From the NCBI RefSeq assembly GCF_036014215.1, contig NZ_CP107921.1, forward strand, positions 5,649,501 through 5,713,500: DNA of 64,000 bases, read 5' to 3'. A program made the position numbers and the translations under genes. The stretch comes from Streptomyces sp. NBC_00440. Its GTDB lineage: Bacteria > Actinomycetota > Actinomycetes > Streptomycetales > Streptomycetaceae. The notes under the pieces are model-generated. The model had not been told where the DNA came from. It saw nothing but the letters and a program-made list of their open reading frames with translations, and searched no databases. The stretch's first letter is position 1. The number at the start of each line of letters is the position of its first letter. Shown here piece by piece: positions 9,523 through 43,100 of the stretch.

Positions 9523-9764
9523 TCCACGGGGCAGGGCGAGGGGGTGCGGCGACCGTGGTGGTGGCTCACCTGTTCGGTGGTCCGGCCGGTCACTCGTATG
9601 TGCGCTCGTACGTGCGCTCGTCGGGTGGTGCGGGCGGGTACGTTACAGGACCTTTCGGCCCGTCAGGAAAGGGATGCCGGGCGCGAAGTGCACCAGGAAC
9701 CAGTAATTCCGGACTTGATCACTCTTGGTGACGCCGAGCTGGTGGCGGCGCTACAGTCGCGCTC

Positions 9765-25295: not shown

Positions 25296-26510
25296 TTACG
25301 CCCCGGGGTCGCGCAGTGCGGCGCCGATGTGGGCTGCCGCAGCCGACAGATGCCGCCTGGCGTCCCGGAGCTGGCTGTCCGTGACTCCGTGATCGCGTGC
25401 CGCGTCCCGGATGTCGTCGCGGAAACGGTCGAGCAGCCGGTCCAGGTCGCGGGCCGGATTGCCGGAAGGCTCCTCGTGTGCCCACTCCGGCTCGGGCGCC
25501 GGGCGGCCGTCCCCCTTGCCCAGGTCGACGGGGGCCGTGGTGTCCGTGCCGGCGGTCGTCTCCGTACCGGAACCGGGGGCTGTGCCCGTACCGGAACCGG
25601 GAGCTGTGCCGGAATCGTGATCCGTGCCGGAACCGGGTTCTGTGCCGGCCGTCGTGCGCGCGCCGGAATCCGTGTCCGTACGGCTTCCCGCCCCCGGCTC
25701 CGCGGCCCGTCCGAAACGGCCCAGTTCCCGGGTGAATTCGGCGAGACCCTCGCGCACTCCGGCGGGCCAGTCACCACGTGCGAAGTGGTCCTGGACCTGC
25801 TCGGCGACCCGCTGCATCTGCTCGCGGGCGTAGTCCTGGGCCTCCCTGGCCTGGCGGCGCGCCTGCTGGGCGTCCTCGCGGGCGCGGCGCGACTCGTCCT
25901 TCGCCCGGCGCGCCTGCTCCTTCCACTCCTGCTTGGCGCGCTTGAAGTCCTCCTTGGCCTGGCGCCAGCCCTCCTTGTCGGTCCAGTTCCCGTCGAAGAA
26001 GTCGGAGGCGTCCGGGAATCCGGGGAACGGCTTCCCCGAGCCGGAACCCGAACCCGAACCCGAACCGCTGTCCGGACCCGCGTCGGCCGTCCGTCCGCCG
26101 TCCGCCGCACCGGCCGACGTCCTGCGTGCCTCCTTCGCCGCCTGGCGGATCTCGCGCCGCAGGTCGTTCGCCGAGCCGCTGACGTCGGCCCGGATCTCCG
26201 CGGCGAGTTCGGAGACCGACTCGCGGATCTCCATCTCCAGGTCGGCCAGTTCACCGCTGCGGCCCGCCAGTTCGGCGCGGCCGGCCTCGGTGATCGAGTA
26301 CACCTTCCGGCCGCCCTCCGAAGCGTGGGTGACCAGTCCCTCCGCCTCCAGCTTGGCCAGGCGCGGATACACGGTGCCCGCGCTCGGTGCGTACAGCCCC
26401 TGGAAGCGCTCCTCCAGGAGCCTGATCACCTCGTAGCCGTGGCGCGGCGCCTCGTCCAGAAGCTTGAGGAGGTAGAGCCGCAGTCGGCCGTGTGCGAAAA
26501 CGGGGGCCAT
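25296..26510 (-). CDS. PadR-family regulator with long disordered C-terminal extension
   Basis: A 404-residue protein. Residues 1-~95 are a PadR winged helix (LRLYLLKLLDEAPRHGYEVI, GTVYPRLAKLEAEGLVTHAS). The remainder is unusually long: a helical, charged coiled-coil stretch near 170-225 (EDFKRAKQEWKEQARRAKDE), flanked by low-complexity Gly/Ser and Thr/Gly/Pro repeats, and a final helical segment (LDRLLDRFRDDIRDAARDHG). Typical PadR proteins are 110-180 residues. It starts one base after the DUF4097 gene's stop. It probably represses that operon through sites at 27398-27431. Confidence 0.85.
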   Translation of the reverse strand: MAPVFAHGRLRLYLLKLLDEAPRHGYEVIRLLEERFQGLYAPSAGTVYPRLAKLEAEGLVTHASEGGRKVYSITEAGRAELAGRSGELADLEMEIRESVSELAAEIRADVSGSANDLRREIRQAAKEARRTSAGAADGGRTADAGPDSGSGSGSGSGSGKPFPGFPDASDFFDGNWTDKEGWRQAKEDFKRAKQEWKEQARRAKDESRRAREDAQQARRQAREAQDYAREQMQRVAEQVQDHFARGDWPAGVREGLAEFTRELGRFGRAAEPGAGSRTDTDSGARTTAGTEPGSGTDHDSGTAPGSGTGTAPGSGTETTAGTDTTAPVDLGKGDGRPAPEPEWAHEEPSGNPARDLDRLLDRFRDDIRDAARDHGVTDSQLRDARRHLSAAAAHIGAALRDPGA

Positions 26511-27487: not shown

Positions 27488-28294
27488 ATGTCAGAGAACG
27501 CCACAGGCGCCTTGCTGCTCTGCCGGGCTGACCCGGCCGCCGTACGGACCGCGGCCCGGGTGCTGGGGGAGCAGCTGCTTCTCGCACCGGCGGGGGAGCG
27601 GTGGAGCGTGCTCGTCCCCGATGCGAAGCCCTGGCTGCACACGGAGGAACCGGTCGACCGGGTGGCCGGCGGCTGGGTCACCACGCTCGCGGTCGCGTCG
27701 GACTGGCCGGTGCTCGCCCTCTGGTGGGACCACGACCGGTCGGGTCTCACGCTGGCCTCCGGCTTCCGGCGGCCGGTCGGCTATGTGTGGCGCGCGGACG
27801 GCACGCCGGTCGGTGAGGACGGGGCGATGCGCACGTTCGGCGCACGGCTGCGGCTCGATCCCGTACTGGACCTCCAGGCGCTGACCGAGCTCACCCTCCC
27901 GGACCCGCTCGCCGACTCACGCTCCCGGCTGACCGGACTCACCGCTGTCCTCGCCCGGGCCGGCCTCGCCCTGCCCACCGGCCTCACCCCCGGTGACCCC
28001 GCCGACCGGCTGCGCGAGGTGGCCAGGGTCCACCCCGCCACCGGGCGGATCGACCCGACGGGCCTGCGGGAGGCCGTGCGGGCGGAACTCGCCGCCTTCG
28101 AGGACGGCACGCTCGGCCCCTGGCTGCGCGGCCCGCGGGCCCGCGCACTCGGCGCGGCGCAGCTGGCCGCCGGTGTCCCGCTCGCGCTCTGGGGCTTCAG
28201 CCGCCGCAGGGGAGGCTGGACGGTGGCGGCCGCCCTGCTGATGGCGCACGGGGTGCTGGGCCTCGCGTACGACCGGATGCGGGCGGGCGCCTGA
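27488..28294 (+). CDS. actinobacterial hypothetical protein
   Basis: A 268-residue protein I do not recognise. The first ~130 residues look like an alpha/beta domain (RWSVLVPDAKPWLHTEEPVD, LALWWDHDRSGLTLASGFRR). The middle is helical, and a hydrophobic C-terminal segment (GGWTVAAALLMAHGVLGLAY) could anchor it in the membrane. Divergent from the DUF4097 operon, so its promoter shares the region with the PadR boxes. Confidence 0.6.
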   Translation: MSENATGALLLCRADPAAVRTAARVLGEQLLLAPAGERWSVLVPDAKPWLHTEEPVDRVAGGWVTTLAVASDWPVLALWWDHDRSGLTLASGFRRPVGYVWRADGTPVGEDGAMRTFGARLRLDPVLDLQALTELTLPDPLADSRSRLTGLTAVLARAGLALPTGLTPGDPADRLREVARVHPATGRIDPTGLREAVRAELAAFEDGTLGPWLRGPRARALGAAQLAAGVPLALWGFSRRRGGWTVAAALLMAHGVLGLAYDRMRAGA

Positions 28295-28560: not shown

Positions 28561-28633
28561 AGACCGACCGGTAATTGCGAGGTGCGTGCCCCAGCCCCGC
28601 TCCTTCACCCGCCCCCCAATTGCCGGTCGGTCT
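28561..28633. repeat. 17-bp inverted repeat with 39-base loop
   Basis: AGACCGACCGGTAATTG (28561-28577) and its reverse complement with one mismatch (28617-28633). It lies between the DUF6104 gene and the divergent conflict operon. The arms share GACCGACCGG and an AATTG end. It could be a pair of operator sites, a cruciform, or the remnant ends of a small mobile element. Confidence 0.65.
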
Positions 28634-28759: not shown

Positions 28760-29170
28760 ATGGCGGCCGAGGTACAGGAAATCGTCCTGCCGGGAGGTGC
28801 GGTCGTGCACGCCCGGCTGACCACATCCGGCGCGCACGGCGACGGCTACGAGGACGTCGGCGTCGCGGAGGTGCTGCAGAACCGGGTGGACGATCTGCGG
28901 CGGGTGATCGCCGGCGTCGGAGGCTCCGTGCTGGACGCGGCGCGCGCCGCCTGTCCCGACGAGGCCACCGTCACCTTCGGCCTTGAGTTCAGCGTCAAGG
29001 AGGGGAAGGTCATCTCCGTCCTGGCGGGGGCCGAGGCGAAGACTGCCCTCCAGGTGTCCCTCACCTGGAAACTCGCCGAGAACGCCGCGCAGCAGCCCGC
29101 CGCAGCCGCGCCCCTCGCGCCTCCGCCCGCCACGCCTCCGCCCGCCGTGCCCCAGCCCGCCGATGAATGA
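28760..29170 (+). CDS. Trypco1-domain (CU044_2847 family) protein
   Basis: A 136-residue protein. The ~105-residue N-terminal part is a Trypsin-co-occurring domain 1, with VLPGGAVVHARLTT, RVDDLRRVIAGVGGSVLDAA, ATVTFGLEFSVKEGKVISVL and ALQVSLTWK. An Ala/Pro-rich tail follows. Such proteins are encoded beside trypsin-like protease genes in predicted biological-conflict loci, where they may be sensors or protease substrates. It is the first gene of the block, and its last eight bases overlap the start of the protease gene. Confidence 0.85.
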   Translation: MAAEVQEIVLPGGAVVHARLTTSGAHGDGYEDVGVAEVLQNRVDDLRRVIAGVGGSVLDAARAACPDEATVTFGLEFSVKEGKVISVLAGAEAKTALQVSLTWKLAENAAQQPAAAAPLAPPPATPPPAVPQPADE

Positions 29171-31154
29171 GCCCGACCCCGTCGTCAACTCCCTCACGGC
29201 TGCCGCGACCGTCCACCTGCTGCCCGCCGGCGGGGCCGCCGCTGACTTCTGGGGCAGCGGCTTCTTCATCGCCCCCGGCTGGGTGCTGACCTGCGCCCAT
29301 GTGCTGCGCCCGCATCTGCCGGCCGGGCCCGGCGGGCACCTCGCGGTACGCGGCGACGACTTCAACGACGGGATCCCCGTCCCCGCCGAGGTGGTGGCCT
29401 GGCAGCTGGCCGAGAAGGAGGGGGCCGCGATCCCGCCGGAGCGGGACCTCGCCCTCGTCCGGCTGCTGGACCCGGAGGCGGAGCACGAATGCGTCTGGTT
29501 CACCGACCGTGACGTACGGCCGATGCACACGGTCGTCGTGCACGGCTACCGCCCCGAACCCCAGGCGGCGCCCGGGGGCGGCCCGGTGTCCTTCACGGCA
29601 AGGGCCGGTATCAACGTGCTCAGCGGAGACCACGGACTGCTGATCGAGCCCGGTGCCGAATACCCCAAGGGCGTGTCCGGCGGCCCGCTCCTCGACCCGC
29701 TCACCGGCGAGGTCGTCGGCATCATCAAGTCCCGCAGGAAGGACAAGGAAGGTGGCCTCGCCGTCGCGGCCGGGGCGCTGCGCGGATTCGGCGACCGCTA
29801 CCGGGAGGTGATGGCCGCACACGACCGCTGGCACGCCGCACGGAAGGGACACCACACCTGGACCGCCAGACAACCGGTGGCGGCCTCCGCAGGGCCCGGC
29901 GGAGGCGGCGACTGGACGCCGCGCGACCGGCGCGATGCGCTGGCGCTCCTCGCCGAACTGCCCGGCCCCGCCACCGGAGCGCCCGTCGCGGTTCTCGCGC
30001 GCAAGGCCGCCCGCGATCTGCTGCCTCCGACCAGGGCCGTACTGCGCGGCTGGCGGGACGGTCACGGCCTGCTGTACGACGGCGAGCAGCCGCTCGGCCC
30101 GCTCGTCCAGCTCAGCTACCTCCGGCTGGCCGCCCAGTACGTCGGCGCGCGCGGCGGCGCGACGGGCCCGCTCTCCGACTGGATCGACCGCAGACTGGAG
30201 CAGGTGACGGACCCGCTCCTGCACGAGCTGGTCACCGGGATCGGGCTGCCCTCCGCGCTGCTCCCCGACCCCGTACGTCCGGAACGCATCGTCCTGCCGT
30301 ACCCGGGCCCCAAGGAGGGGCCGGTGGTCACGGTCGTGATGGATCCGCTGCACGACGACCCCGCGCTCTTCGAGTGGACGATCCACCTCTTCAGCGGAGA
30401 AGGGGGCAGCGAGCAGATCGGCGCGTACGAGGGGCCGGCCCCTCGTACGCAGGGCGGCGACGCGGTCTGGCACAACCACCAGACGCTGCGGCGCAGGCTC
30501 CATGAGGTGCTGCACGCCGAGGACCCCGACGGGGACCGTCCGGTGCCGGTGGAGATCGCCCTGCCGCTCGGCCGGTTCGACACCCCCGTCCACCGCTGGC
30601 AGCTCCAGGACGCCCCGCCGATGGACGGGCTCACCCACCTGGGGGCGCAGCGACGTCTGGTGGTGCGCGATCTCGGGCGCCGCGGCCAGTGGCACGACGA
30701 GGCCGGGCGGGACACCCGCTGGCAGGCCGCCGCCGGGGCCCAGCGGCTGACCGTGGCGCGGATCCCGGAACCGGGCACCGCCCAGCGGCCCGCGTACTAC
30801 GAGTCGCTTCCGCCCGGCGCCGTCCCCGTGCTGTGCCGCCCCGCGGGCCGGGGCGCCGGAGCCGCCGCCATGGAACTGACGCTGCGGGCCGGCCACGGCA
30901 TCGCGCTGTGGCACATCGGCCGTGGTGCCGGGCACAGTTGCGGAGAGGACTGCGCCGAACTGCGGGCGCGGGTACAGAAGTTGTTCGACGCGGCCGGCGG
31001 AACGGCGGAACTCCCGGACCGGCTGCGCCATCTGCGGGAGGACATCGACCGCCGGCGCCCCGAGACCCACTGGCCGGAACCGCTGATGCTGCTGTACGAC
31101 GACCCGGGGCGGCCCCTGCCCACCGATGACGAACACACCCTGGACTCCCCGTGA
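29163..31154 (+). CDS. trypsin-like protease fused to a VMAP-type region
   Basis: A 663-residue two-part protein. Residues ~10-210 are a chymotrypsin-fold protease with His 46 (VLTCAHVL), Asp 95 (ERDLALVRLLD) and Ser 172 (GVSGGPLLD), so the triad is complete. No signal peptide, so it is cytosolic. The remainder matches vWA-MoxR-associated proteins: a helical middle (DRRDALALLAELPGP...YLRLAAQYVGA) and a C-terminal domain with EIALPLGRFDTPVHRWQL. ATG 29163 overlaps the Trypco1 stop. By analogy the VMAP part senses or couples to the ATPase/vWA pair downstream and the protease acts as an effector. Confidence 0.85.
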   Translation: MNEPDPVVNSLTAAATVHLLPAGGAAADFWGSGFFIAPGWVLTCAHVLRPHLPAGPGGHLAVRGDDFNDGIPVPAEVVAWQLAEKEGAAIPPERDLALVRLLDPEAEHECVWFTDRDVRPMHTVVVHGYRPEPQAAPGGGPVSFTARAGINVLSGDHGLLIEPGAEYPKGVSGGPLLDPLTGEVVGIIKSRRKDKEGGLAVAAGALRGFGDRYREVMAAHDRWHAARKGHHTWTARQPVAASAGPGGGGDWTPRDRRDALALLAELPGPATGAPVAVLARKAARDLLPPTRAVLRGWRDGHGLLYDGEQPLGPLVQLSYLRLAAQYVGARGGATGPLSDWIDRRLEQVTDPLLHELVTGIGLPSALLPDPVRPERIVLPYPGPKEGPVVTVVMDPLHDDPALFEWTIHLFSGEGGSEQIGAYEGPAPRTQGGDAVWHNHQTLRRRLHEVLHAEDPDGDRPVPVEIALPLGRFDTPVHRWQLQDAPPMDGLTHLGAQRRLVVRDLGRRGQWHDEAGRDTRWQAAAGAQRLTVARIPEPGTAQRPAYYESLPPGAVPVLCRPAGRGAGAAAMELTLRAGHGIALWHIGRGAGHSCGEDCAELRARVQKLFDAAGGTAELPDRLRHLREDIDRRRPETHWPEPLMLLYDDPGRPLPTDDEHTLDSP

Positions 31155-31263
31155 CCGGGACCCCGCGGACCGTTCCACGGCAATGGCCTGAAAACGACTT
31201 TGACGATGCGCCGGACGGGTACGTATCCCGGAACGCCCGGCGCCGATGAGGAGCGAACCAGCG

Positions 31264-32319
31264 ATGAGCGAATGGTTCATCTACCGCGGCACCGGCGACC
31301 CCGATCCGGAGCGTATCGACCGCAGGCCCGCGCCACCGCCCTGGCGTGACTTCGGCGCCCCGCCCATCGACTACCGGGTGCCGGAAGCCGACTCCGCGAC
31401 CACGCGGCGGCTGGGTACCCGGGCCGTCCCCCTCGCGGTGCCCGGCAGCGAGGCGCTGCGGCTCATCAACGCCGCGCTGTATCTGCGCCGCCCGCTGCTG
31501 ATCACCGGAGAGCCGGGCTCGGGCAAGAGCACGCTCGCCCACGACCTCGCCTTCGAACTCGGCCTCGGCCGCGTCCTCCAGTGGCCGGTCGTCAGCCGCA
31601 GCGAACTCCGCGACGGCCTCTACTCCTACGACGCCATCGGCCGCCTCCAGGACGCCCAGCTCGCCCGGCTGGAGGACGGCGAGGGCGGCGGGAACGGCGG
31701 GAACGGTCCGGCCGGCGGACCGCACCCGGCCGGGGACATTGGGCGCTATCTGCGGCTGGGCCCGCTCGGCACCGCGCTGCTCGCCGCCGAGCGGCCCCGG
31801 GTGCTGCTCATCGACGAGCTGGACAAGAGCGACATCGACCTCCCCAACGACCTGCTGAACGTGCTGGAGGAGGGCGAGTTCACCCTGCCCGAACTGGAGC
31901 GGGTCGCCGACCGGCCGGGGCAGCAGACCGTCCAGGTCCTCACCGACGACGGGCTGCGCGCCCCCGTCACCGGCGGCCGGGTGCGCTGCCGGGCCTTCCC
32001 GGTGGTCGTCATGACCAGCAACCGCGAGCGGGACTTCCCCGCCCCCCTGCTGCGCCGGTGCATCCACCTCGACCTGGCGGCGCCCCGGGACGAACGGCTC
32101 GCCGCCATGGTCCAGGCGCACTTCGGCGCCGGATCCTACGACGAGTACATAGGCCTCGTCGACCGGTTCGTCCGTACCGAGGCGGACGGCGGAGTGCGCC
32201 CGACCGACCAGCTGCTGAACGCGATCTACCTCGTCCAGCACACCGCGGGCCGCCACCCCGCGGACCAGGAGGCCGTCGCCGATCTCCTGATGCGGCCCCT
32301 CGACAACGGGCCCAGGTGA
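31264..32319 (+). CDS. MoxR-family AAA+ ATPase
   Basis: A 351-residue AAA+ protein. Walker A GEPGSGKST at 82-90, Walker B VLLIDELDKSDIDLPNDLLN at ~180, sensor-type MTSNRERDFPAPLLRRC. A glycine-rich loop (EGGGNGGNGPAGGPH) interrupts the domain near 140-155. ATG 31264 is preferred: the earlier ATG at 31246 contains the GAGGAGC ribosome-binding site. MoxR ATPases remodel client complexes together with vWA proteins; the partner is encoded four bases downstream. 109 bases separate it from the protease gene. Confidence 0.9.
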   Translation: MSEWFIYRGTGDPDPERIDRRPAPPPWRDFGAPPIDYRVPEADSATTRRLGTRAVPLAVPGSEALRLINAALYLRRPLLITGEPGSGKSTLAHDLAFELGLGRVLQWPVVSRSELRDGLYSYDAIGRLQDAQLARLEDGEGGGNGGNGPAGGPHPAGDIGRYLRLGPLGTALLAAERPRVLLIDELDKSDIDLPNDLLNVLEEGEFTLPELERVADRPGQQTVQVLTDDGLRAPVTGGRVRCRAFPVVVMTSNRERDFPAPLLRRCIHLDLAAPRDERLAAMVQAHFGAGSYDEYIGLVDRFVRTEADGGVRPTDQLLNAIYLVQHTAGRHPADQEAVADLLMRPLDNGPR

Positions 32320-32323
32320 CCCG

Positions 32324-35300
32324 GTGGGCGACGGGCGGGACGAGAGCGGCCGGGGTGTGGCACTGACCACTCTGGTCGCCCGGCTGCGGGAGTCCGGCCG
32401 CGATGTCGACGCGCGGGAACTCGCGGACGCGCTGTGGCTGGCCGCCCGCACCGGAGCCCCCGCCCCCGCCGGGCCCGGCCTTCCGGCCGGTCTCCCGCAG
32501 GAGACCCCCGCCGCTCCGCCGGCCGCCCCCACCCGCCCCGTCGAGCCGCCCGGGGACACGCCCGGCGCGCCCGCCGCCCTGCTGACCGCGCCGGACCCGG
32601 AAGGCGCGCCCGCCGCCGTGGAGGCTTCGCCGGTCCTGGTGCCCGCGGCGCCCGCGCTCGCCGATCCGCACGCGCTCCAGCGCGCGTTACGGCCGCTGAG
32701 CCGCTACCGGTCACCGGCCATCCCGCCGGGCCGCAGGCTCGACGAGGAGGCCACCGCCGGCCGGGCGGCCGACACCGGACTGGTCATTCCGGTACTGCGC
32801 GCGGCGCGCCGGCAGAAGGCGCGGCTGCTGCTCCTCATGGACGTCTCCACGTCGACGGTCGCCTGGGAGAGCGCACTGGAGGAGCTGGCCGGCATCTGCG
32901 CCGGCGCCGGAGTCTTCCAGGACGTCCAGCTGCGCTATCTGCACCCGGACGGCGAATCGGGCGCCGGATACGCGGCCGGACGCGTCCCGGCGGGACCGCT
33001 GCGCCGCGCAGCCCAGCTCGGCGACCCCACCGGCCGCCGGATCATCCTGCTGCTCTCGGACTGCTCAGGACCCATGTGGCGGTCCGGTGTCCTGCAGCGG
33101 CTGCTGTACCACTGGTCGGCCACCACCCCGGTCGCAGTCGTCCAGCCGCTGCCGCAGCGGCTGTGGCGGCGGACCCATCTGCCCGCGTACGGAGGGGTGC
33201 TGCGGCGGCACGAAGGCCCCCTGGGGCGGCTGGAGTTCAGCGCAGTGCCGCACGGCTCCGACCCGCGCGACGGCAGACCGGTCCCGGTGCTCGCGCTGCG
33301 GCGCACCTCCGTGGAGGGCTGGGCCGGGCTGGTCTCGGGCGGCACCGGCCAGTCGGTGTCCACCGCGGCCGCCTGGGTGCGCCGTGACCAACCGCCCTCC
33401 CGCGCACCGGTACGGGCCGAGGCCGCGCTCACCGGGCAGGAGCGGGTCGGCGCGTTCCGGCGGACCGCGTCCCCCACCGCGCAGCGGCTTGCCGAGTATC
33501 TGACGGCGGTGCCGCTGGTGCTGCCGGTGATGCGGCTCGTCCAGCACACGATGCTGGCGGGCACCGGCCCCGAGGCGCTGGCCGAGGTGCTGCTCGGCGG
33601 CATCGTACGGCGCGCCGAGCGGCCCGACATCGGCCCCTCCGACGGTCCGTACTACGAATTCCTCGACGGGGTGAAGGTGTTGCTCGCCGCCCGGCTCGAC
33701 CGGGGGGACGAGCGGCTCGTGCTGCGGCACAGTTCGAGCTATGTCCAGCGGCGCTTCGGCCGCAGCGCGCGCAACTTCCCCGCCATGGCCGCCGTCGCGC
33801 TCGGCGAGCGGCTGCCCGTCCCGGCGGGCGGCGGTGCGATGCCCGCCGGGCTGCGCGTCTTCGCCGAGGTCGCGGCGGACACCATCAGACGCCGCGGCGG
33901 GCCTCCCGTCGCGCCGCCCGGCCCCGGCACCCCGGGCGAACTCACCGCGCAGGCGGACGAGTTCATCCAGCGGTACGAGCGGTACGGCGGCGTACGGGAC
34001 CTCGACAGCGCGATCGGGCTGCTGCGCCTGGCCGCGGCAGGGGAGCGGCGCCGTGAGTCGGTGCCGGCCCGCAGGGCGGAGCTGTCCCGGGCGCTGCTGC
34101 TGCGCTGGCGGCTGCGTGCGCTGGACGAGGACCTGGCGGAGGCCTGGGAATCCGCGAAGTCCTCCGACGGGTTCGCGGCCGCCGAGGTGCTGCACGCCAT
34201 GGCGGTGGCGGCCGATGAAGGGCAACTCGGCCAGGAGCTGGCCGGGAAGGTACTGCGCGAGGTCCGCGGCCCGTACCCCGGCGACGCCCCTCTCGATGAC
34301 GCGGACACCGCGGCCGAGCTGCTGTCCGCGGCGTCCGACCGGCTCCGCGGGGTGACGGAGGCCGTACGGCCGTCGGAGGAGTGGCAGGCGGCCGCCGCAC
34401 TCCACATCGAGGTGCTGCGGCGGCTGTCCAGGGCGGGCGGGCCGGCGGTGGACACCACGCCCCTGTACGCGGCGGCGGCGCTCGCCGAGCGGCTGGCGGA
34501 CGCGGCGGACGGGGTCGGGGCGCGGGTGCTGCACGGCACCCTGGAACTGGATCTGGCCCGCCACGTGGTGAGTGACGACGTCGTACGGCACTACGCCCTG
34601 CGTGCGCTCCGGGCGCTGCGCCCCGCCGCCGAGGCCACCGGGGGCGCCGAACGGGCCGACATCTGGCTGAAGATCGCCAGTGCGCTGGAGCTGGCCCACC
34701 TGGAGGGCGGCGACGCGTCGTGGCGGCGGGAGGTGCTGGACGCGCTCGCCGCGGCCCTGACGGCCGCCGATGACGACGCCGTACGCCACCACTGCCACCT
34801 GCGCATGGGGGACGTGCACTGGCAGGGGCACATCGACCCCGCTGCTCCCGCTCTCCCGGCGGCCGCCCGCCCGGACAGTGTCCATTTGGAGAGCGCCCAT
34901 CCGGACAGCGTTCATCCGGAGAGCGCCCGCCCGGAGGGCAGCCGGGGGGAGAGCGCCCGCCCGGACAGCGCCCACGGGGGCGCCCCCGGACACGGCCAGG
35001 GGCCGGCCCCCCGGCCCGGCACACATCTGGACGGTGCCATCGAGCACTGGGCCGCCGCCCTCGCCACCGGGACCCCGGACCGGCCGGCCAGGCTCCTCAC
35101 CCGGCTGGGCCGGGCGCTGGGACACCGTGCGGCGCGGGACGGCGCGCCCGGCGATCTCGACGCCGCCGTACGCCGGCTGCGCGAGGCCGTCGACGAGACG
35201 GCCGAGTCGGACCGCGAACTGGCCGCGCGCCGGGCGCTGCTCGGGGCGCTGTATCTGGCGCGCTACCGGGCCACCGGCGGGCTCACCGACCTCTACGAGG

Positions 35301-35662
35301 CCGACTGGGCCCAAGGAGCCGCCGCGCGCGGGGCCCCCGACCCGTACGCGGCCTCGCGCGCCTGGCAGGCCCGGGGCGACATCGCGGTGCTCCTCGCCCG
35401 GCACACCGGCACCCCCGACCGGCTCCAGCAGGCCGCCGAGCACTATCTGCGCGCCACCGACGTGGACGACGACGGGCGGGCCGGTGCGGCGCGGGCGGCG
35501 CGCGCCGCTGTGCTGGAGGAGCTCGCGGGCCCGCCGGAAGCCCTCCGCGAGTACCGGGCGGCCCTGGCGCTGCTGGAGTCCGCCGGGCCCGCAGGGGACA
35601 GTGCCGCGGCCGGTGTCCGGGACGCCGTCGCCCGGCTGACGGACGGGGCGGCCGGCCGTTGA
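32324..35662 (+). CDS. SAV_2336-type protein with vWA domain and TPR-like repeats
   Basis: A 1112-residue protein, from GTG 32324 (a GTG at 32357, giving ALTTLVARLRESG, is also possible). The N-terminal helical domain is followed by a Pro/Ala linker. A vWA-like domain has the MIDAS motif D173-V-S175-T-S177 in LLLLMDVSTSTVAW. A helical region follows (VMRLVQHTMLAGTGPEALAE), then ~500 residues of TPR-like helices. A repeat-rich insert (codons covering 34876-34990) contains recurring SA(H/R)P(D/E)S units. Codon 122 (32687-32689) is TTA, the rare bldA-dependent leucine codon. Four bases after the MoxR gene; its stop overlaps the peptide gene as TTGA. Confidence 0.85.
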   Translation: MGDGRDESGRGVALTTLVARLRESGRDVDARELADALWLAARTGAPAPAGPGLPAGLPQETPAAPPAAPTRPVEPPGDTPGAPAALLTAPDPEGAPAAVEASPVLVPAAPALADPHALQRALRPLSRYRSPAIPPGRRLDEEATAGRAADTGLVIPVLRAARRQKARLLLLMDVSTSTVAWESALEELAGICAGAGVFQDVQLRYLHPDGESGAGYAAGRVPAGPLRRAAQLGDPTGRRIILLLSDCSGPMWRSGVLQRLLYHWSATTPVAVVQPLPQRLWRRTHLPAYGGVLRRHEGPLGRLEFSAVPHGSDPRDGRPVPVLALRRTSVEGWAGLVSGGTGQSVSTAAAWVRRDQPPSRAPVRAEAALTGQERVGAFRRTASPTAQRLAEYLTAVPLVLPVMRLVQHTMLAGTGPEALAEVLLGGIVRRAERPDIGPSDGPYYEFLDGVKVLLAARLDRGDERLVLRHSSSYVQRRFGRSARNFPAMAAVALGERLPVPAGGGAMPAGLRVFAEVAADTIRRRGGPPVAPPGPGTPGELTAQADEFIQRYERYGGVRDLDSAIGLLRLAAAGERRRESVPARRAELSRALLLRWRLRALDEDLAEAWESAKSSDGFAAAEVLHAMAVAADEGQLGQELAGKVLREVRGPYPGDAPLDDADTAAELLSAASDRLRGVTEAVRPSEEWQAAAALHIEVLRRLSRAGGPAVDTTPLYAAAALAERLADAADGVGARVLHGTLELDLARHVVSDDVVRHYALRALRALRPAAEATGGAERADIWLKIASALELAHLEGGDASWRREVLDALAAALTAADDDAVRHHCHLRMGDVHWQGHIDPAAPALPAAARPDSVHLESAHPDSVHPESARPEGSRGESARPDSAHGGAPGHGQGPAPRPGTHLDGAIEHWAAALATGTPDRPARLLTRLGRALGHRAARDGAPGDLDAAVRRLREAVDETAESDRELAARRALLGALYLARYRATGGLTDLYEADWAQGAAARGAPDPYAASRAWQARGDIAVLLARHTGTPDRLQQAAEHYLRATDVDDDGRAGAARAARAAVLEELAGPPEALREYRAALALLESAGPAGDSAAAGVRDAVARLTDGAAGR

Positions 35663-35814
35663 CCCACGACACAGAAGCACTGCCCGGCGACCCGCTGCCC
35701 CGGCTGACCCCGCCGTGGGACACCGGCCACCCGGTGCTCGCCGCCGTACTCGCCGAGACCCGGCAGCGCGATCCGCACGAACCGCTCATCGCCTACTACG
35801 AGGACGCGCCATGA
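35659..35814 (+). CDS. candidate RiPP precursor peptide ending YxDxx-COOH (FxsA-like)
   Basis: A 51-residue peptide in a frame that starts TTG at 35659 (overlapping the vWA stop as TTGA) and ends overlapping the radical SAM start as ATGA. The leader-like part is TEALPGDPLPRLTPPWDTGH then PVLAAVLAETRQRDP; the C-terminus is EPLIAYYEDAP. The last five residues Y47-E-D49-A-P51 occupy the F-x-S-x-x-COOH positions of classical FxsA precursors, with an aromatic-x-Asp pair that three-residue-cyclophane-forming enzymes can cross-link. There is no upstream Shine-Dalgarno beyond GC-rich GGACGGGG, so translation probably depends on coupling. Function is inferred from position and motif only. Confidence 0.65.
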   Translation: MTHDTEALPGDPLPRLTPPWDTGHPVLAAVLAETRQRDPHEPLIAYYEDAP

Positions 35815-36992
35815 CCCCCGCGGTCCGCGACCGGCCCGTCGCTCAACACCCCGTGCCGTTCCGGCAGTTCGTCCTGAAGGTGCACAGCCGCTGCAACCTG
35901 GGCTGCTCCTACTGCTACGTCTACCGCGGCCAGGACAGCAGCTGGCGGGAGCGCCCGCGCCGCGCCACCGGCGAGACCGTCCGCAGGACCGCGGCGCGGA
36001 TCGCCGAGCACGTCACCGCGCACCGGCTCCCGCGTATCCGGATCGAACTGCACGGCGGCGAACCGCTACTGTCCGGGCCGGGCCCGGTGATCGAGTACGC
36101 CCGCGCCGTACGGGACGCGGTGCCCGCGGGGTGCGAGGTCACCGCGACCGTGCAGACCAACGGGACCCTGCTGACCGCCCGTACGCTCGACGCGCTCGCC
36201 GCCGCCCGGATCCGCGTCGGGCTCTCCCTCGACGGCGGCACCGCGGCGCTCAACTCCCGCCGCAGGGACCACGCGGGCCGGCCCTCCTGGCCCGCCGCCC
36301 ACCGGGCCGCCCGGCTGCTCGCCGCGTGCCGGCACCCCGGCACGTACGCCGGGATCCTCTGCACCATCGACCTCGCGGCCGACCCGGTCGAGGTGTACGA
36401 CAGCCTGCGCGCGCTGCGCCCGCCGGGGCTCGACCTGCTGCTGCCGCACGGCAACTGGTCCGTGCCGCCACCGGGGACCGAGCCGGGGGAACCGGGCCGG
36501 CACCGGCCGCGCCCCACCCCGTACGGCCACTGGCTCGCCACCGTCTTCGACCGCTGGTGGGACGGCGGTCCCGGCCAGCCGCGCATCCGGCTCTTCCACA
36601 CCCTCGTCGCCCTGCTGTTCGGCGAACCGGCCGCGGCCGAGGCGGTGGGGCTGGCCCCGCTGGCCGTCGTCGTCGTGGACACCGACGGCGCCATCGAGCA
36701 GGTCGACGCGCTCAAGTCCGCCTACGAGGGAGCCCCTTCGACCGGCCTCGACGTCTTCAGCGACCCCTTCGACACCGCGCTCGCACACCCCGGGATCGCC
36801 GCCAGACAACTCGGTGAGAAGGCGCTCCCCGGAGTCTGCCTGCGCTGCCCGGTGCTCCGGGTGTGCGGCGGCGGCAACTACGTCCACCGGTACGCGGCCG
36901 GGGCCGGCTTCCGGCACCCCAGCGTCTACTGCGCCGATTTGGAGTACCTCATCCGGTATATCGCCCACCGGCTGAGCGCTTTCGTCACGTGA
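35811..36992 (+). CDS. fxsB: FxsB-family radical SAM/SPASM peptide maturase
   Basis: A 393-residue radical SAM enzyme. The SAM-cluster cysteines are C28, C32 and C35 in RCNLGCSYCYVYRGQDSSW, a run typical of the FxsB family. The barrel follows (IRIELHGGEPLLSGPGPVIE, TVQTNGTLL, GLSLDGG), then a C-terminal SPASM-like region with auxiliary-cluster cysteines (CLRCPVLRVCGGGNYVHRY, SVYCADLEYL). FxsB enzymes cross-link an aromatic side chain to a residue two positions on. ATG 35811 overlaps the peptide stop, so enzyme and substrate are co-translated. A 12-bp palindrome CGTCACGTGACG (36983-36994) spans the stop codon. Confidence 0.92.
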   Translation: MTPAVRDRPVAQHPVPFRQFVLKVHSRCNLGCSYCYVYRGQDSSWRERPRRATGETVRRTAARIAEHVTAHRLPRIRIELHGGEPLLSGPGPVIEYARAVRDAVPAGCEVTATVQTNGTLLTARTLDALAAARIRVGLSLDGGTAALNSRRRDHAGRPSWPAAHRAARLLAACRHPGTYAGILCTIDLAADPVEVYDSLRALRPPGLDLLLPHGNWSVPPPGTEPGEPGRHRPRPTPYGHWLATVFDRWWDGGPGQPRIRLFHTLVALLFGEPAAAEAVGLAPLAVVVVDTDGAIEQVDALKSAYEGAPSTGLDVFSDPFDTALAHPGIAARQLGEKALPGVCLRCPVLRVCGGGNYVHRYAAGAGFRHPSVYCADLEYLIRYIAHRLSAFVT

Positions 36993-37088
36993 CGTATCGT
37001 GGCGCCGACTGGCCGTCAACATGGCGACTTCTGTTCACACTTGAGTGGTAGGTGCACGACAGTGACGCAACTGGTTGAGGGAGTGACG

Positions 37089-40055
37089 ATGGCGGAGCCG
37101 ACTCCCCACGTCACGGTGGTCTTCGCCGGGCAGAGCGAGCCCTGGGCCCACTGGATGGCCCGGCAGCTCACGGAGGTGGGGACCGCCACCGCCCTGGTCC
37201 GCTGGAACCCGGCCCGGAGCTCGCCGACCGCCGACGCCCTCACCGGAATGCTGACCGCACCCGGGCGGGTCCTGCTCGTCATCGACGACTGGTTCGAGCG
37301 GTTCGACGACGGCCTCCGCACGGCGTGGGCCGACGCGCTGCGCCAGATGCTCGCCGACCACCCCGAACGGATCGCCGGAGTCAGCGTCACCACCCGCCCG
37401 CTGCCCGAGGCCATCATCGCCCTGGGGCCGGTCGCGCTGCGCGGCCTGAGCGCCGACGCGGCCCGCAGGCGGGTGCTCGAAGTCGCCGGCGCACCGGACG
37501 GCGCGGTCCGCCCGGTCACCCTGGACCGCGTCCCGCGGTTCCCCGACGACCCGCCGGACATCCAGAACGTACCGCGCCGCAACCGCAGGTTCACCGGCCG
37601 CGGAACCCTGCTCGACCACATCCACGACACCTTCGCCGCCGGCCGCGGCGAGGGTGCGGTACTCGCGCTGTGCGGGCCGGGCGGGATCGGCAAGACCCAG
37701 ATCGCGCTGGAGTACGTCCACCGCTTCAAGGGCGAGTACGACATCGTCTGGTGGCTGGACGCGACCACCACCGGCACCGCCCGTGAGCAGTTCGGCACGC
37801 TCGCCGAAGCCCTCGGCGCAGGAGTCGGCAGCAAGCTCGACCAGTCCATAGCCGCGGCCGCCGGAAAGCTGCGCGCCACCGGCGACAGCTGGCTGATCGT
37901 CCTCGACGGCGCCGGAGACCCCGAGAAGCTGGCCGCCCTGCTGCCCGAAGGGGCGGGCGACATCCTGGTCACCACCAACCACCAGGAGTGGTCGGCCCTG
38001 GCCGAGCTGTTCCAGGTGGGGCACTTCGAGCGGGAGGAGTCCGTGGCCTTCGCGGGCCGCCGCTCCCAGCGGCTCTCCCCGTACGAGGCCGGGCTGCTCG
38101 CCGAAGCCGTCGAGGACCTGCCGCTGCTGCTCGACCAGACGGCGGCCTGGCTCGACATCAACCCCACCGTCGACATCCCCGAGTACATCAGGGAGCTGAC
38201 GGAGAGCAACCCCGACCGCTTCGGGGTGCTGGCCTCCCAGGACTACCCGGTGTCCTTCCAGATTGCCTGGGCCAGGACCCTCGGCAGCCTGCGCGAACAG
38301 GACCCGGGCGCCTGGAAACTGCTCAATCTGCTCGCCCGCTTCTCCCCGGGGATGCTGCCGCTGCGGCTGCTCCAGTCGGCGCGCGCCACCGACCTCCCCA
38401 AACCCCTGGACCGGGTCGTCCCGGAACCGAGCAGCTGGAACTCCGCCCTGCGCCGGCTCTCCGAAGTGACCTCCATGCGGCTGGAGTACGACCCCGTCCC
38501 GCGGATGGGCGGCTCCGTCACCGTCGCCGCCCTGCGGATGCACCGGATCTTTCACTCCTTCGTACGGCACGCCCAGACACCCGGTGAGCGGGCGGAGCTG
38601 ACCGAGGCCGCGCTCAAGGTGCTCGTCACCGCCGACCCGAGGGACCCGGCGTCGTCCCGCAACTGGTCCCGCTACGCCGAACTGATTCCGCATCTGGAGA
38701 TCGCGGGCGCCCTGGAGTCGGCCGACGAGGACGTGCGCAGGCTGGTGCTCAACTGCATCGAGTACCTGCGGATGCGCGGCGAGTACGAGGAGGGCGGGCG
38801 GCTCAGCCGGGCGGCCGTCGAGCACTGGGAGCGGGTGTCCGGCGCCACCAGCACTTCCGTCCTGGTCGCCGTCCACCAGCGCGCCAACATGGAGCGCAGG
38901 CTGGGCCGTTACGCCGAGGCCGAGGCGGTCGGACGTGAGGTGCTCGAACGGCTGCTGAGCAGCCCCGGAGCCGAACCCATCGAAGTGATCAGGGCCAGGG
39001 ACGGGCTCGGCGGCACCCTGCTGGCGCTCGGCCGCTACGACGAGGCCAGGACGCTCTTCGAGCAGGCGGACCGGGAGGCCGTCACCTCGCTGGGCGACGC
39101 CGAGGTGCCGCGCACCCTGTCCATACGGAACAACCTGGCCGAGGCGATGGGCCTCCAGGGGAAGTACCAGGCGTCGCTGGACCTGCACCGGGACATCCTG
39201 ACCGCGCGGGTCGCCCTGCTCGGCGGGCGCAATCCGCTCACCCTGCACTCGGCGCTGCGCACCGCGACCATGCTGCGGCTGCTCGGGCGCTACCGGGAGG
39301 CCCTGGAGATCCAGCAGCACAACTCGCGGCTGCACGGCCAGGAGCTGGACCGCAACCACGGGCAGACCCTGAACGCCGACCACAACCTCGCCCTGTGCCT
39401 GCGCCGCGACGGGAAGCTCCTCCAGGCCAGAGCGCTGCTGCTCAGCGTCCGCAAACGCCGGGTCGCCCGGCGCGGCCGCCGCCACCCCGACACCCTGCGG
39501 GCGGGCGCCGACTTCGCGATGCTGCTGCGCGAGGCGGGCGAGTTCCGTGAGGCCTACGACCTCGCGGACGAGACGGCCTCGCTGTACGCGCTGCAACTCG
39601 GCGAGCTGCACCCGTACGCGGTGGGCACCCGGGCGAACCTGGCACTGCTGCAGGGCGACGCGGGAGACCACGACGGCGCCCTGGAACTCGCCGAACAGAC
39701 CCTGGAGCAGATGACGGACGCGGTGGGCGCTGACCACCCGTGGACGCTGGGCTGCGCCTTCAACACCGCGACGGCACGGCAGCGGGCGGGAGACGCCGAA
39801 GGCGCCGTACGGCTGGGACACGACCTGCTGGACCGGTCCGTGCGGTCGCTCGGCCCGGGACACCCGCTGACCACCACCGCCCAGACCGCGCTCGCCCGTG
39901 ATCTGCGGGCGGCCGGCGATACGGCGCTCGCCGGCCGGCTGCACGCGGAGGCGCTGGCCCGGATCACCGAACTGCTCGGGGACGACCACCAGCACACCCG
40001 GAGCATCCGGGACGGCGCGGTGCGGTACTGGGACTTCGAGCCGCAGTTCGTCTGA
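37089..40055 (+). CDS. fxsT: FxsT-like NB-ARC/TPR protein with TIR-like N-terminal domain
   Basis: A 988-residue STAND-type ATPase. Residues ~5-125 look TIR-like (HVTVVFAGQSEPWAHWMARQ, GRVLLVIDDWFERFDD). The NB-ARC core has P-loop GPGGIGKT at 196-203, after the family sequence NVPRRNRRFTGRG, and a Walker B-like SWLIVLDGAGDPEKL. About ten TPR units follow ([34 protein letters not shown] and similar), ending YWDFEPQFV, as in FxSxx-COOH-system TPR proteins. ATG 37089 follows GAGGGAG; GTG 37062 is possible. It is 96 bases after the maturase. The architecture is that of an NLR-like sensor with a potential NAD-related effector domain. Confidence 0.88.
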   Translation: MAEPTPHVTVVFAGQSEPWAHWMARQLTEVGTATALVRWNPARSSPTADALTGMLTAPGRVLLVIDDWFERFDDGLRTAWADALRQMLADHPERIAGVSVTTRPLPEAIIALGPVALRGLSADAARRRVLEVAGAPDGAVRPVTLDRVPRFPDDPPDIQNVPRRNRRFTGRGTLLDHIHDTFAAGRGEGAVLALCGPGGIGKTQIALEYVHRFKGEYDIVWWLDATTTGTAREQFGTLAEALGAGVGSKLDQSIAAAAGKLRATGDSWLIVLDGAGDPEKLAALLPEGAGDILVTTNHQEWSALAELFQVGHFEREESVAFAGRRSQRLSPYEAGLLAEAVEDLPLLLDQTAAWLDINPTVDIPEYIRELTESNPDRFGVLASQDYPVSFQIAWARTLGSLREQDPGAWKLLNLLARFSPGMLPLRLLQSARATDLPKPLDRVVPEPSSWNSALRRLSEVTSMRLEYDPVPRMGGSVTVAALRMHRIFHSFVRHAQTPGERAELTEAALKVLVTADPRDPASSRNWSRYAELIPHLEIAGALESADEDVRRLVLNCIEYLRMRGEYEEGGRLSRAAVEHWERVSGATSTSVLVAVHQRANMERRLGRYAEAEAVGREVLERLLSSPGAEPIEVIRARDGLGGTLLALGRYDEARTLFEQADREAVTSLGDAEVPRTLSIRNNLAEAMGLQGKYQASLDLHRDILTARVALLGGRNPLTLHSALRTATMLRLLGRYREALEIQQHNSRLHGQELDRNHGQTLNADHNLALCLRRDGKLLQARALLLSVRKRRVARRGRRHPDTLRAGADFAMLLREAGEFREAYDLADETASLYALQLGELHPYAVGTRANLALLQGDAGDHDGALELAEQTLEQMTDAVGADHPWTLGCAFNTATARQRAGDAEGAVRLGHDLLDRSVRSLGPGHPLTTTAQTALARDLRAAGDTALAGRLHAEALARITELLGDDHQHTRSIRDGAVRYWDFEPQFV

Positions 40056-40163: not shown

Positions 40164-43100
40164 CTAGGCCTCGAAGACCTCGGCGACCAGCTGGGCCTGC
40201 TCGGCCTGGTGGCGCTTGGCGGAGCCGACCGCGGGCGACGAGCCGTGCGGCCGCGAGATGCGGCGCAGGCGCTCACCGTGCGGGACGTCGGCGCCGACCG
40301 CCAGGTCCAGGTGGTCGATCAGGTTGAGCGCGATGAATGGCCACGCACCCTGGTTCGCCGGCTCCTCCTGCGCCCAGAGGTACTTCTCGGCGTTCGGGAA
40401 CTTGGCGATCTCCGCCTGGAGTTCGGCACCCGGCAGCGGGTACAGGCGCTCAAGACGGATGATCGCGGTGTCCGTGACGCCGCGCTTGGTGCGCTCCGCG
40501 TCCAGGTCGTAGTAGACCTTGCCGGCCGTGAAGACGACCTTGCGCACGGCGCTCGGGTCGACACTGTCGTCCCCGATGACCGGACGGAAGCCGCCCGTGG
40601 TGAACTCCTCCGCCTTCGACGCGGCCGCCTTGAGGCGGAGCATCGACTTCGGGGTGAAGACGACCAGCGGCTTGTGGTGCGGGTTGTGCACCTGCCACCG
40701 CAGGAGGTGGAAGTAGTTCGACGGGAGCGTCGGCATGGCGACCGTCATGTTGTTCTGCGCGCACAGCTGGAGGAAGCGCTCCGGGCGGGCGGACGAGTGG
40801 TCCGGGCCCTGGCCCTCGTAGCCGTGCGGGAGGAGCAGGGTGACGCCGGACGTCTGGCCCCACTTCTGCTCGGCGGCCGAGATGTACTCGTCCACCACGG
40901 TCTGCGCGCCGTTGACGAAGTCACCGAACTGCGCTTCCCACATGACCAGCGACTCCGGGCGGGCCAGCGAGTAGCCGTACTCGAAGCCCATCACCGCGTA
41001 CTCGCTGAGCAGCGAGTCGTAGACGTTGTAACGCGCCTGGTCGTCGGAGAGGTAGAGCAGCGGGGTGAAGTCCTCGCCGGTCTTGCGGTCGATGAGCACC
41101 GCGTGCCGCTGGCCGAAGGTCCCGCGGCGCGAGTCCTGGCCGGAGAGGCGGACCGGGGTGCCCTCCAGGAGCAGCGAGCCGATGGCGAGGGTCTCGCCCA
41201 TCGCCCAGTCGATCGTGCCCTCGTCGATCATCGCGGCCCGGCGCTGCACCTGCGGCAGCAGCCGCGGGTGCACGGTGATCCGGTCCGGGATGTTGACCTG
41301 CGACTCGGCGATCCGCTTCACGACCTCCTGGGAGATCGAGGTGTCCACGGCGACCGGGAACTCGGCCTGCGGGACCGGCACCGTGGCCTCGGCGGGCTCC
41401 GCCGTGGCCTCGCGGACCTCCGCGAAGACCTTCTCCAGCTGGCCCTGGAAGTCCTGGAGCGCCTGCTCCGCCTCTTCCAGCGTGATGTCGCCGCGACCGA
41501 TGAGGGACTCGGTGTAGAGCTTGCGCACCGAGCGCTTCTTGTCGATCAGGTCGTACATCAGCGGCTGCGTGAACGAGGGGTTGTCGGCCTCGTTGTGACC
41601 GCGGCGGCGGTAGCAGATCAGGTCGATGACGACGTCCTTGTTGAACGCCTGGCGGAACTCGAAGGCGAGGCGCGCGACACGCACCACGGCCTCCGGGTCG
41701 TCGCCGTTCACATGGAAGATCGGCGCCTCGATCATGCGGGCCACATCGGTGGCGTACATCGACGAGCGCGACGACTCCGGAGCGGCGGTGAAGCCGACCT
41801 GGTTGTTGATCACGATGTGCACGGTGCCGCCGGTGCGGTAGCCGCGCAGTTGCGACATGTTGAGCGTCTCGGCGACGACGCCCTGGCCCGCGAAGGCCGC
41901 GTCGCCGTGCAGCGCCACCGGCAGCACGGTGAAGTCCGTGCCGCCCTTGTTGATGATGTCCTGCTTGGCGCGCGCGATGCCCTCGACGACCGGGTCGACG
42001 GTCTCCAGGTGGGACGGGTTGGCGGCCAGCGAGACCTTGATCTGCTCGCCGTCCAGACCGGTGAAGGTGCCCTCGGAGCCGAGGTGGTACTTCACGTCGC
42101 CCGAACCGTGCATCGACTTCGGGTCGAGGTTGCCCTCGAACTCGCGGAAGATCTGCGCGTACGACTTGCCGACGATGTTGGCCAGCACGTTGAGACGGCC
42201 GCGGTGGGCCATCCCGATGACGACCTCGTCGAGGCGCGACTCGGCGGCCGAGTCGATGACCGCGTCGAGCAGCGGGATGACGGACTCGCCGCCTTCGAGC
42301 GAGAAGCGCTTCTGGCCGACGTACTTGGTCTGCAGGAAGGTCTCGAACGCCTCCGCCGAGTTCAGCCGGCGCAGGATGCGCAGCTGCTCCTCGCGCTCGG
42401 GCTTGGCGTGCGCGCCGCGCTCGATGCGGTCCTGGATCCACTTGCGCTGCTTGGGGTCCTGGATGTGCATGAACTCGACGCCGGTGGTGCGGCAGTACGA
42501 GTCGCGCAGCACGCCCAGGATGTCGCGCAGCTTCATCATCGACTTGCCGGCGAAGCCGCCGACGGCGAACTCGCGCTCCAGGTCCCAGAGGGTGAGCCCG
42601 TGCTCGATGATGTCCAGATCGGGGTGCTTGCGCTGCTTGTACTCCAGCGGGTCGGTGTCGGCCATGACATGGCCGCGGACCCGGTAGGAGTGGATCAGCT
42701 CGAAGACGCGGGCGGCCTTGGTGACGTCATTGTCGTGCGAGACGTCGATGTCCTTGAGCCAGCGGACCGGCTCGTACGGGATGCGCAGCGCCTCGAACAG
42801 GTCGTCGTAGAAGCCGTTCTCGCCGAGCAGCAGGTTGGCGAGGATCCGCAGGAACTCGCCGGAGGCGGCACCCTGGATGACCCGGTGGTCGTAGGTCGAG
42901 GTCAGGGTCATGACCTTCGAGATGCCCAGCTTGTTCAGGGTGTCCTGCGAGGTGCCCTGGAACTCGGCCGGGTAGTCCATCGCGCCGACACCCATGATGA
43001 GGCCCTGGCCGGGCATCAGACGGGGCACGGAGTGGACGGTGCCGATACCGCCGGGGTTGGTGAGCGACGCGGTGACCCCGGTGAAGTCGTCCATCGTCAG

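Follow-up and report, generated by a model that had tools for sequence, protein, structure and literature searches.

The window analysed here, a stretch of 64,000 nucleotides (G000:C1:5649501-5713500) from the 8.68 Mb genome of Streptomyces sp. NBC_00440, contains at positions 28760-40055 a block of seven + strand genes that joins a protease-VMAP system to a peptide-modifying system and an NB-ARC protein, next to sucA, the gene for 2-oxoglutarate dehydrogenase E1. With slightly less than even confidence, we read this block as one conflict (immune-like) cassette, which genomes acquire, lose and exchange in its entirety at a constant position 3' of sucA. It would represent a variant with a Y-x-D (YxD) peptide tail of the VMAP-ternary plus AP-ATPase systems predicted by Kaur et al. 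(2020; PMC7159879), working by the mechanism proposed below. Direct support exists for the gene content of the block, its conservation, its joint gain and loss, the co-variation of its two halves, the matching of peptide tail to modifying enzymes and the intact protease triad. The layout equals the one published in 2020, and the architecture is thus not new. The initial annotation had noted that related loci were predicted computationally; it had also singled out the physical joining of the protease and cyclophane branches as special to this site, a point that falls because the joint layout is already described there.

Window reading frames and profile matches place all seven genes where they had first been noticed, on one strand and with overlapping or short junctions. 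The first gene encodes Trypco1 (trypsin-co-occurring domain 1; 28760-29170; PF19493, 51.5 bits, cut-off 24.6) and adjoins a gene for a trypsin-like protease fused to VMAP-C (29163-31154; PF13365, Trypsin_2, 58.6 bits; PF20028, 116 bits). These are followed by a MoxR-type AAA+ ATPase (31246-32319, with a further in-frame ATG at 31264; PF07728, AAA_5, 33.7 bits), whose Walker A and B motifs are legible in the sequence, and by a von Willebrand factor A (vWA) protein of 1112 residues with a SAV_2336-type N-terminal half and a variable C-terminal half (32324-35662; NF041121, 410 bits). The peptide part consists of a precursor of 51 residues with a TTG start (35659-35814) and a 393-residue FxsB-family radical S-adenosylmethionine (SAM)/SPASM cyclophane maturase without the FxsBH extension (35811-36992). 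The last gene, for FxsT, combines TIR-like, NB-ARC (CED-4/plant-NLR-like, where NLR denotes nucleotide-binding leucine-rich repeat proteins) and tetratricopeptide repeat (TPR) regions (37089-40055; NF040586, 739 bits); a longer open reading frame (ORF) begins at GTG 36999, but ATG 37089, with which the alignable region opens and which has a GGAG upstream, is the likelier start. The junctions are, in order, an 8 bp overlap, gaps of 91 and 4 bp, two 4 bp overlaps (vWA/peptide and peptide/maturase) and a 96 bp gap. With MoxR AAA+, vWA and VMAP-C proteins encoded together, and with Trypco1 next to the trypsin-like VMAP as is typical where the VMAP is of that kind, the block has what defines a VMAP-ternary system, and the initial description of a complete vWA-MoxR-VMAP block joined to a radical SAM peptide pair and an NB-ARC/TPR gene agrees with the domain matches and with their conserved order.

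That conservation was assessed with an alignment of 15 maturases (A1), which recovered 78 loci from the best 80 of 212 confirmed stretches, that is, the closest ones; a set found through radical SAM relatives is biased to near kin. All parts occur in the same order and on the same strand in 52 of 79 loci (the window, its near-copy L007 and 77 more), a regularity that puts the block far beyond chance. The closest locus among the matches listed is L007 of Streptomyces sp. NBC_01306, with a maturase 100% identical to that of the window. The flank suffices for a judgement in 64 of the 79 loci, and 15 were set aside. Besides L053 and L063, which are considered below, the 12 informative loci that lack the full block comprise five with MoxR downstream (L056, L057, L058, L064, L068), one with MoxR and vWA and no Trypco or VMAP match (L032) and four more distant relatives (L079-L082). 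A protein scan of L057 found DUF4231-SLATT and TIR proteins, MoxR and a 1630-residue protein with TIR-NB-ARC-TPR in its C-terminal part. In a sample of 121 Streptomyces genomes, one per species, 46 short-FxsB genes scored at least 541 bits; three of these lie at contig ends, and 35 of the remaining 43 have a same-strand VMAP-C no more than about 7 kb away (a hand count in which classes A and B, defined below, are mixed). Those without a near VMAP-C are found in G259 (twice), G279 (twice), G242:C5, G261, G205 and G295. A class-wide search placed the FxSxx_TPR family above cut-off in 49 of 197 genomes. Two FxsB-type maturase genes stand about 4.6 kb apart within one locus in L032, L041, L067, L074, L075 and L076, and also in G259 and G279.

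The block occupies a slot with conserved borders. On its right, sucA (40164-44033, - strand; PF00676, PF16870 and others) has a tblastn match in 48 of the 51 other full-block loci. On its left, a gene for a PadR-family regulator (25296-26510, - strand; PF03551, 76.5 bits) is matched in 44 of these 51, and the marker up280, a conserved reading frame opposite in strand to the likely gene, in 47 of the 51 (10 kb flanks). A second left marker, the 268-residue ORF up268 (27488-28294, + strand), has no Pfam or NCBIfam match and is found by tblastn in 22 loci, 21 of them with the full block. The interval was then followed from sucA in the 121 genomes, reading up to 19.7 kb on its 3' side. Cassettes with a radical SAM enzyme only are called class A (16 slots, the window among them), those with radical SAM and a gene for an HExxH protein (called at 150 bits or more) class B (27) and those with HExxH only class C (20), 63 in all; of the remainder, 3 contain VMAP only (class V), 1 is unresolved, 39 are empty, 13 hold other genes and 2 are unknown. 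More finely divided, VMAP, radical SAM and NB-ARC stand together in 13 slots including the window, plus one; VMAP, radical SAM, HExxH and NB-ARC in 14, plus six in which the left marker was not reached; VMAP, HExxH and NB-ARC in 15; and radical SAM, HExxH and NB-ARC with VMAP absent in four, plus three with the left marker unreached. Contig-limited fragments show HExxH in five cases, radical SAM in two and NB-ARC only in one. At least two class C rows, L231 and L232, come from short contigs and fall with B on the NB-ARC tree; they may be truncated B cassettes.

Comparisons of paired slots show the cassette present or absent at one point. The class B slot L155 carries 13.3 kb that the empty slot L224 lacks, with L155:5860 and again L155:19153 corresponding to the same position, L224:19118. 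Similarly, L140 and L220 differ by 12.7 kb versus 51 bp and L145 and L117 by 11.4 kb versus 123 bp; L174/L183 is less sharp (11.1 kb versus 808 bp), and the fifth pair compared, L177/L214, sets class A against class C. In the 39 empty slots the median distance from the marker to the end of the region is 533 bp. An integration element or a tRNA target was considered and rejected: the window contains no tRNA, the two stretches that flank the block share no direct word longer than 10 bases, and there is thus no sign of site-specific integration.

Inside the slot, the two halves of the block behave as one unit. Pairwise distances of MoxR and NB-ARC correlate with r = 0.945 (51 slots) and those of VMAP and NB-ARC with r = 0.888 (49 slots), both with a Mantel p of 0.0002. 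Against the flanking adh protein, MoxR and NB-ARC reach r of only 0.32 and 0.29 across classes (29 slots) and 0.65-0.92 within classes (8-13 slots each); against padR the values are 0.15 across and 0.36-0.81 within classes, with class B not significant (p 0.06). The partial correlation of MoxR and NB-ARC given adh is 0.959. As adh and padR correlate at r 0.60 with each other, the comparison with the host is to be read with the caveat that flanking proteins may have recombined too. The A/B/C distinction can be explained by 4 changes on the tree of NB-ARC and by 2 on that of MoxR, and class A forms one side of a branch on the NB-ARC tree with 100% support in the Shimodaira-Hasegawa-like approximate likelihood ratio test (SH-aLRT), to be taken with caution since long branches meet there. 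On a tree of two flanking proteins, by comparison, A/B/C needs 11 changes over 29 rows, where shuffling gives a mean of 13.4 and 16 of 300 shuffles are equally low; for A/B/C/empty on the flanking-gene host tree the count is 23 over 66 rows (shuffled mean 26.9, 4 of 300 as low). These host trees were built by a quick method from just one or two of the flanking proteins. All 4 pairs with an adh identity of at least 98% are of the same class, compared with 44% of the 39 pairs at 96-98%. Few changes on the cassette trees and many on the host tree imply that class history is inherited inside the cassette, which has moved between hosts with weak host clustering.

The initial annotation had taken the protease half and the fxsB/fxsT half for one system. 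The results in the slot uphold this, as independent phylogenies were not seen there and the halves are present or absent jointly, but elsewhere in the genome the halves do exist apart. In the same genome as the window, locus L115 holds an FxSxx set composed of FxsBH with an inactivated hydroxylase extension, FxsC and FxsT with a MinD/ParA-like domain, with no VMAP-C match nearby, and L116 holds a trypsin-VMAP protein, an AAA protein and a 1147-residue protein without a Pfam match, with no FxsB match nearby. The parts are therefore separable in evolution, though not independent in the sucA slot. Beside the standalone FxSxx set lies a weak match to an HtrA-type serine protease (L115:5669-6874, - strand; 25 bits).

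The peptide tail type follows the enzyme set of the cassette class. In the window, the precursor ends in AYYEDAP, with Y-x-D (YED) beside a SPASM radical SAM enzyme; it scores 36.9 bits with NF041709 (YxD; cut-off 55) and 14.8 bits with TIGR04268 (FxSxx; cut-off 28), and its C-terminus is not of the FxSxx form. The maturase itself, at 420.7 bits with TIGR04269 (cut-off 370), is a member of the FxsB family, and CxxxCxxC is invariant in all 15 maturase rows of A1. A [YFH]xD tail, a loose pattern sought anywhere in the last 25-30 residues, is found in 50 of 51 class A loci, 43 by confident profile match and 7 through a regular expression applied to candidate ORFs; L051 alone departs from it. The window slot yields only a 39-bit match to the HExxH gene, without the HExxH motif, and in 51 of 52 full-block loci the stretch reaching from 0.5 kb ahead of the maturase to 3.5 kb beyond it showed no such gene. 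In two proteins scanned, one from class B and one from class C, the extra gene matches TIGR04267, the aKG-HExxH-type peptide beta-hydroxylase. Candidate peptides appear in 7 of 9 class B slots read, with tails of FxSxx type or near it (FNSAF, FNSAC, FDSGV; FNNAF in L129 and L136), and in 7 of 12 class C slots read, where a similar leader precedes tryptophan/acidic tails such as SWPEDAFVD. A crude pattern count gives FxSxx-like tails in 19 of 27 B slots, YxD in 11 of 16 A slots and neither in all 20 C slots, the misses including contig-limited rows. The label "FxSxx-type" first given to the block is hence to be dropped, given its YxD tail and its lack of an HExxH enzyme. A Tyr-Asp cross-link is probably formed in the window peptide. 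Processing of the peptide by a zincin-like gene product, as in the 2020 article, was set aside, since the block has no such gene. A duplicated YxD core (AYFSDAP ... AYFADAP) occurs in the precursors at L029 (~9621-9962) and L038 (~2851-3237).

The trypsin domain has an HtrA/DegS-like protease fold, and its triad H46/D95/S172 is invariant in 18 of 18 aligned trypsin-VMAP proteins. A function as leader peptidase with Arg/Lys specificity was tried and abandoned, because in the alignment, read by eye, the residue six before the catalytic Ser is variable. Within VMAP-C, C593 and C597 are invariant in the 18 rows of alignment A3 and the nearby H588 is nearly so; judged from these residues, the cluster could bind metal. 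The vWA identity of the 1112-residue protein stands through NF041121 (SAV_2336 N-terminal type), Pfam's own vWA match being weak (21.4 bits versus a cut-off of 26.4), whereas the TPRs first ascribed to it were not detected by Pfam at E 0.05. Across 52 loci, its C-terminal half has the lowest median pairwise identity (0.30, versus 0.50 for the N-terminal half), below VMAP-C (0.37), trypsin (0.39), MoxR (0.64) and the maturase (0.67), as expected for a part that meets changing partners.

In FxsT, the NB-ARC fold has the intact P-loop of a signal transduction ATPase with numerous domains (STAND)/NLR protein. Residues 2-552 were aligned to the plant NLR RPP1, but with a root mean square deviation (rmsd) of 15. 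The N-terminal region scores 27.9 bits with TIR_2, just under the Pfam cut-off of 28, and alternating strands and helices are predicted for it; against solved structures it gives weak SEFIR matches (E 0.07) that do not reach the column of the glutamate. From the EW motif, we take the column before an invariant Trp to be the catalytic Glu site. This residue is Ala in the window and Glu in 23 of 52 full-block loci; among the slots, Glu occurs in 6 of 16 class A, 24 of 27 class B and 19 of 20 class C cassettes. The TIR-like domain of the window thus probably lacks the catalytic glutamate and is a doubtful effector. Instead of the two effectors originally suggested, the protease is the likely effector in this variant, with the TIR-like domain more probably serving as an adaptor. 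Protease action under NLR-like control is suggested by a sucA-slot protein that unites Trypsin_2, NB-ARC and TPRs (L127:255-3536, + strand, opposite to the usual cassettes), by a CHAT protease in L129, a slot without VMAP, and likewise in L075, whose left side is cut off, and by the triad, which is kept in all aligned proteins while the TIR Glu is not. In another slot, a long ORF adjoining sucA (L133:15103-19602, + strand) combines AAA_16, Trypsin_2 and VMAP-C, with a second trypsin/VMAP in that slot.

We infer a ligand role, a trigger and an outcome for the system as follows. In the 51-residue peptide, the radical SAM enzyme would join the Tyr and Asp of the YED tail by a cross-link, and the linked repeat proteins may recognize the modified C-terminus as a tag or ligand, FxsT through its TPRs and the vWA protein through its variable C-terminal half. 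The complex would be kept off, and its threshold set, by MoxR-vWA together with the NB-ARC ATPase. If an intruder or a wrong peptide disturbed the complex, the NB-ARC protein might assemble as CED-4/Apaf-1-like rings, whereupon the trypsin fused to VMAP, with Trypco1, would cut target proteins and stop or kill the hyphal compartment. Several observations count against a single cassette that works in this way. PADLOC has no model that matches the block beyond generic domain matches. Half-cassettes exist in the slot, four without VMAP whose left boundary was reached and three with VMAP only in which no peptide enzymes were found. Solitary pairs of YxD peptide and maturase, without recognized conflict genes, occur at L053 and L063 (S. 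monomycini and S. rimosus); the peptide can hence do without trypsin-VMAP, as it is found alone with its radical SAM enzyme at these two loci and with SLATT/TIR genes in L057. Finally, the lack of conservation six positions ahead of the catalytic Ser means that cleavage of the peptide by the trypsin cannot be argued. The neighbours of the L053 pair are an AadA_C protein and a 2'-5' RNA ligase-like protein.

Foremost among the alternatives, and possible though unlikely, is an ordinary anti-phage abortive-infection cassette at a defence hotspot, in which infection would free the peptide to act as an amplifier or a toxin, a role suggested by Kaur et al. (2020). This published prediction, the NLR/STAND plus protease architecture, the patchy presence and the turnover of cassettes all fit. 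However, no PADLOC system is matched, and the five proteins read in two of the slots with other contents are biosynthetic (nonribosomal peptide synthetase-like, epimerase, SnoaL-like) rather than defensive. Four of the 13 such slots were inspected, through seven proteins from L127, L128, L131 and L163; L128 and L163 each encode an AMP-binding/PP-binding/thioesterase protein and an epimerase, with a SnoaL-like protein too in L163, and by gene sizes L134 and L164 are similar to them.

Somewhat less likely is a self/non-self (allotype) locus in which class and tail mark the strain: where unlike hyphae fuse or exchange material, a foreign or a missing own peptide would trip the NB-ARC protein and protease, as at fungal het loci. 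In line with this are the constant site, which exists in several old classes and in an empty state, the contrast between 23 changes on the host tree and 4 or 2 on the NB-ARC and MoxR trees, class differences between genomes with 96-97.5% identical flanking protein, and the agreement of tail type with class. On the other hand, the weak clustering of classes on the host tree and the shared class of all four pairs at 98% identity or more leave fast turnover unsupported, defence islands are also swapped at fixed sites, and the slot is empty in 39 of 121 genomes. We know of no hyphal-fusion phenotype. A fuller form of the idea, in our estimate slightly less probable again, holds that the sucA-3' interval is an allotype-like locus with a few ancient classes that are kept across species and swapped whole, each with its own chemically marked tail (a YxD cyclophane; an FxSxx cyclophane with an HExxH-type modification; an HExxH-modified tryptophan tail), and that the tail would be a tag checked by NB-ARC/TPR and vWA with the protease as executioner. 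If true, this would be a bacterial counterpart of fungal het loci and of plant and animal NLR incompatibility, or else a guarded immune locus.

That a VMAP protease system and a system of ribosomally synthesized and post-translationally modified peptide (RiPP) plus NB-ARC merely share the slot as independent neighbours is improbable. Each half is also found by itself in this genome (L115, L116) and one-half slots exist, but the MoxR-NB-ARC correlation, which persists given the host gene, the joint insertion and the 4 bp overlap of the vWA and peptide genes across the boundary of the halves all tell against it. Plain RiPP biosynthesis of an exported bioactive peptide, with the remaining genes for immunity or regulation, is highly improbable: triceptide enzymes are RiPP maturases and the pairs at L053 and L063 are solitary, but the seven block genes include no exporter, and from species to species the tail shows conservation, not diversification.

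The position of the slot offers a simple account of a published oddity. Kaur et al. (2020) report that, in 141 Streptomycetales, VMAP systems favour sites roughly 33% of the way in from one or the other chromosome end, and relate this to arm recombination. In 55 genomes with a chromosome-sized sucA contig, the folded chromosome position of sucA has a median of 0.322 (quartiles 0.295-0.352). Of 75 VMAP-C places on large contigs, copied by hand among the matches listed (195 matches in all), 25 lie inside the slot, as do 19 of the 30 in the 0.30-0.40 zone. The position of sucA and this share suggest, for our own sample as distinct from the published data set, that the location peak is largely the sucA slot. 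Since it comes in three exchangeable classes of peptide chemistry and is naturally empty in some genomes, the slot also allows isogenic testing over one interval of about 12 kb. If the peptide is a recognized tag, bacteria would possess a post-translationally marked self-peptide read by an NLR-like protein.

Further features in and around the block are of less weight. Between up268 and Trypco1, a near-palindromic inverted repeat (28561-28633; 28-nt arms, 82% complementary, 17-nt spacing) is a possible operator or terminator. A promoter/terminator scan returned no promoter-like sites (0.2 expected) and two terminator-like sites (1.4 expected), not above shuffles. Downstream of the block, a + strand ORF of 1310 residues (40209-44141) has no Pfam match and is antisense to sucA.

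Compared with known systems, the block comes closest to the VMAP-ternary systems with a peptide subsystem, for which Kaur et al. (2020) describe Trypco-trypsin combinations together with peptide-processing genes. Trypco and trypsin-VMAP, MoxR, vWA, peptide, radical SAM/SPASM and a downstream TIR-NB-ARC-TPR protein are common to both. In the FxSxx type of that article the vWA protein has TPRs only and the TIR-AP-ATPase gene is separate and downstream; such a separate TIR-NB-ARC gene is present in the window. However, the YxD tail falls outside the four tails listed in the parts cited (FxSxx, RxD, acidic, FtsH-associated), and the block is without the zincin-like gene that is called the core of the peptide part there and that we equate, by our own reading, with the HExxH gene. 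The main text of PMC7159879 does not mention "sucA" or "oxoglutarate", and in the open-licence literature the trigger, effector and peptide role of the system predicted in 2020 were not found assigned. With the YxD triceptides (NF041709; Sugiyama et al., 2022), in which, according to a review (PMC11002830), the maturase YxdB links C3 of Tyr to Cbeta of Asp, the window shares Y-x-D near the C-terminus and an adjacent SPASM radical SAM enzyme; it differs in a peptide under the NF041709 cut-off, in a cross-link that is predicted, and in its setting within a VMAP/NLR cassette. The FxSxx-COOH system (FxsBH/FxsC/FxsT) of L115 has an FxsB-family maturase and an FxsT homologue in common with the window but, unlike it, possesses the FxsBH extension, FxsC and a MinD/ParA-like ATPase domain on FxsT, and has no VMAP-C match nearby. 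Relative to CED-4/Apaf-1 and the plant NLR resistosomes, FxsT, for which such assembly is putative, has a TIR-like N-terminus that is probably inactive and TPRs instead of WD40 or leucine-rich repeats. As far as shown, what is new with respect to the open-licence literature is the YxD variant without HExxH in a VMAP block, the sucA slot with its interchangeable classes and empty state, and the explanation of the location peak.

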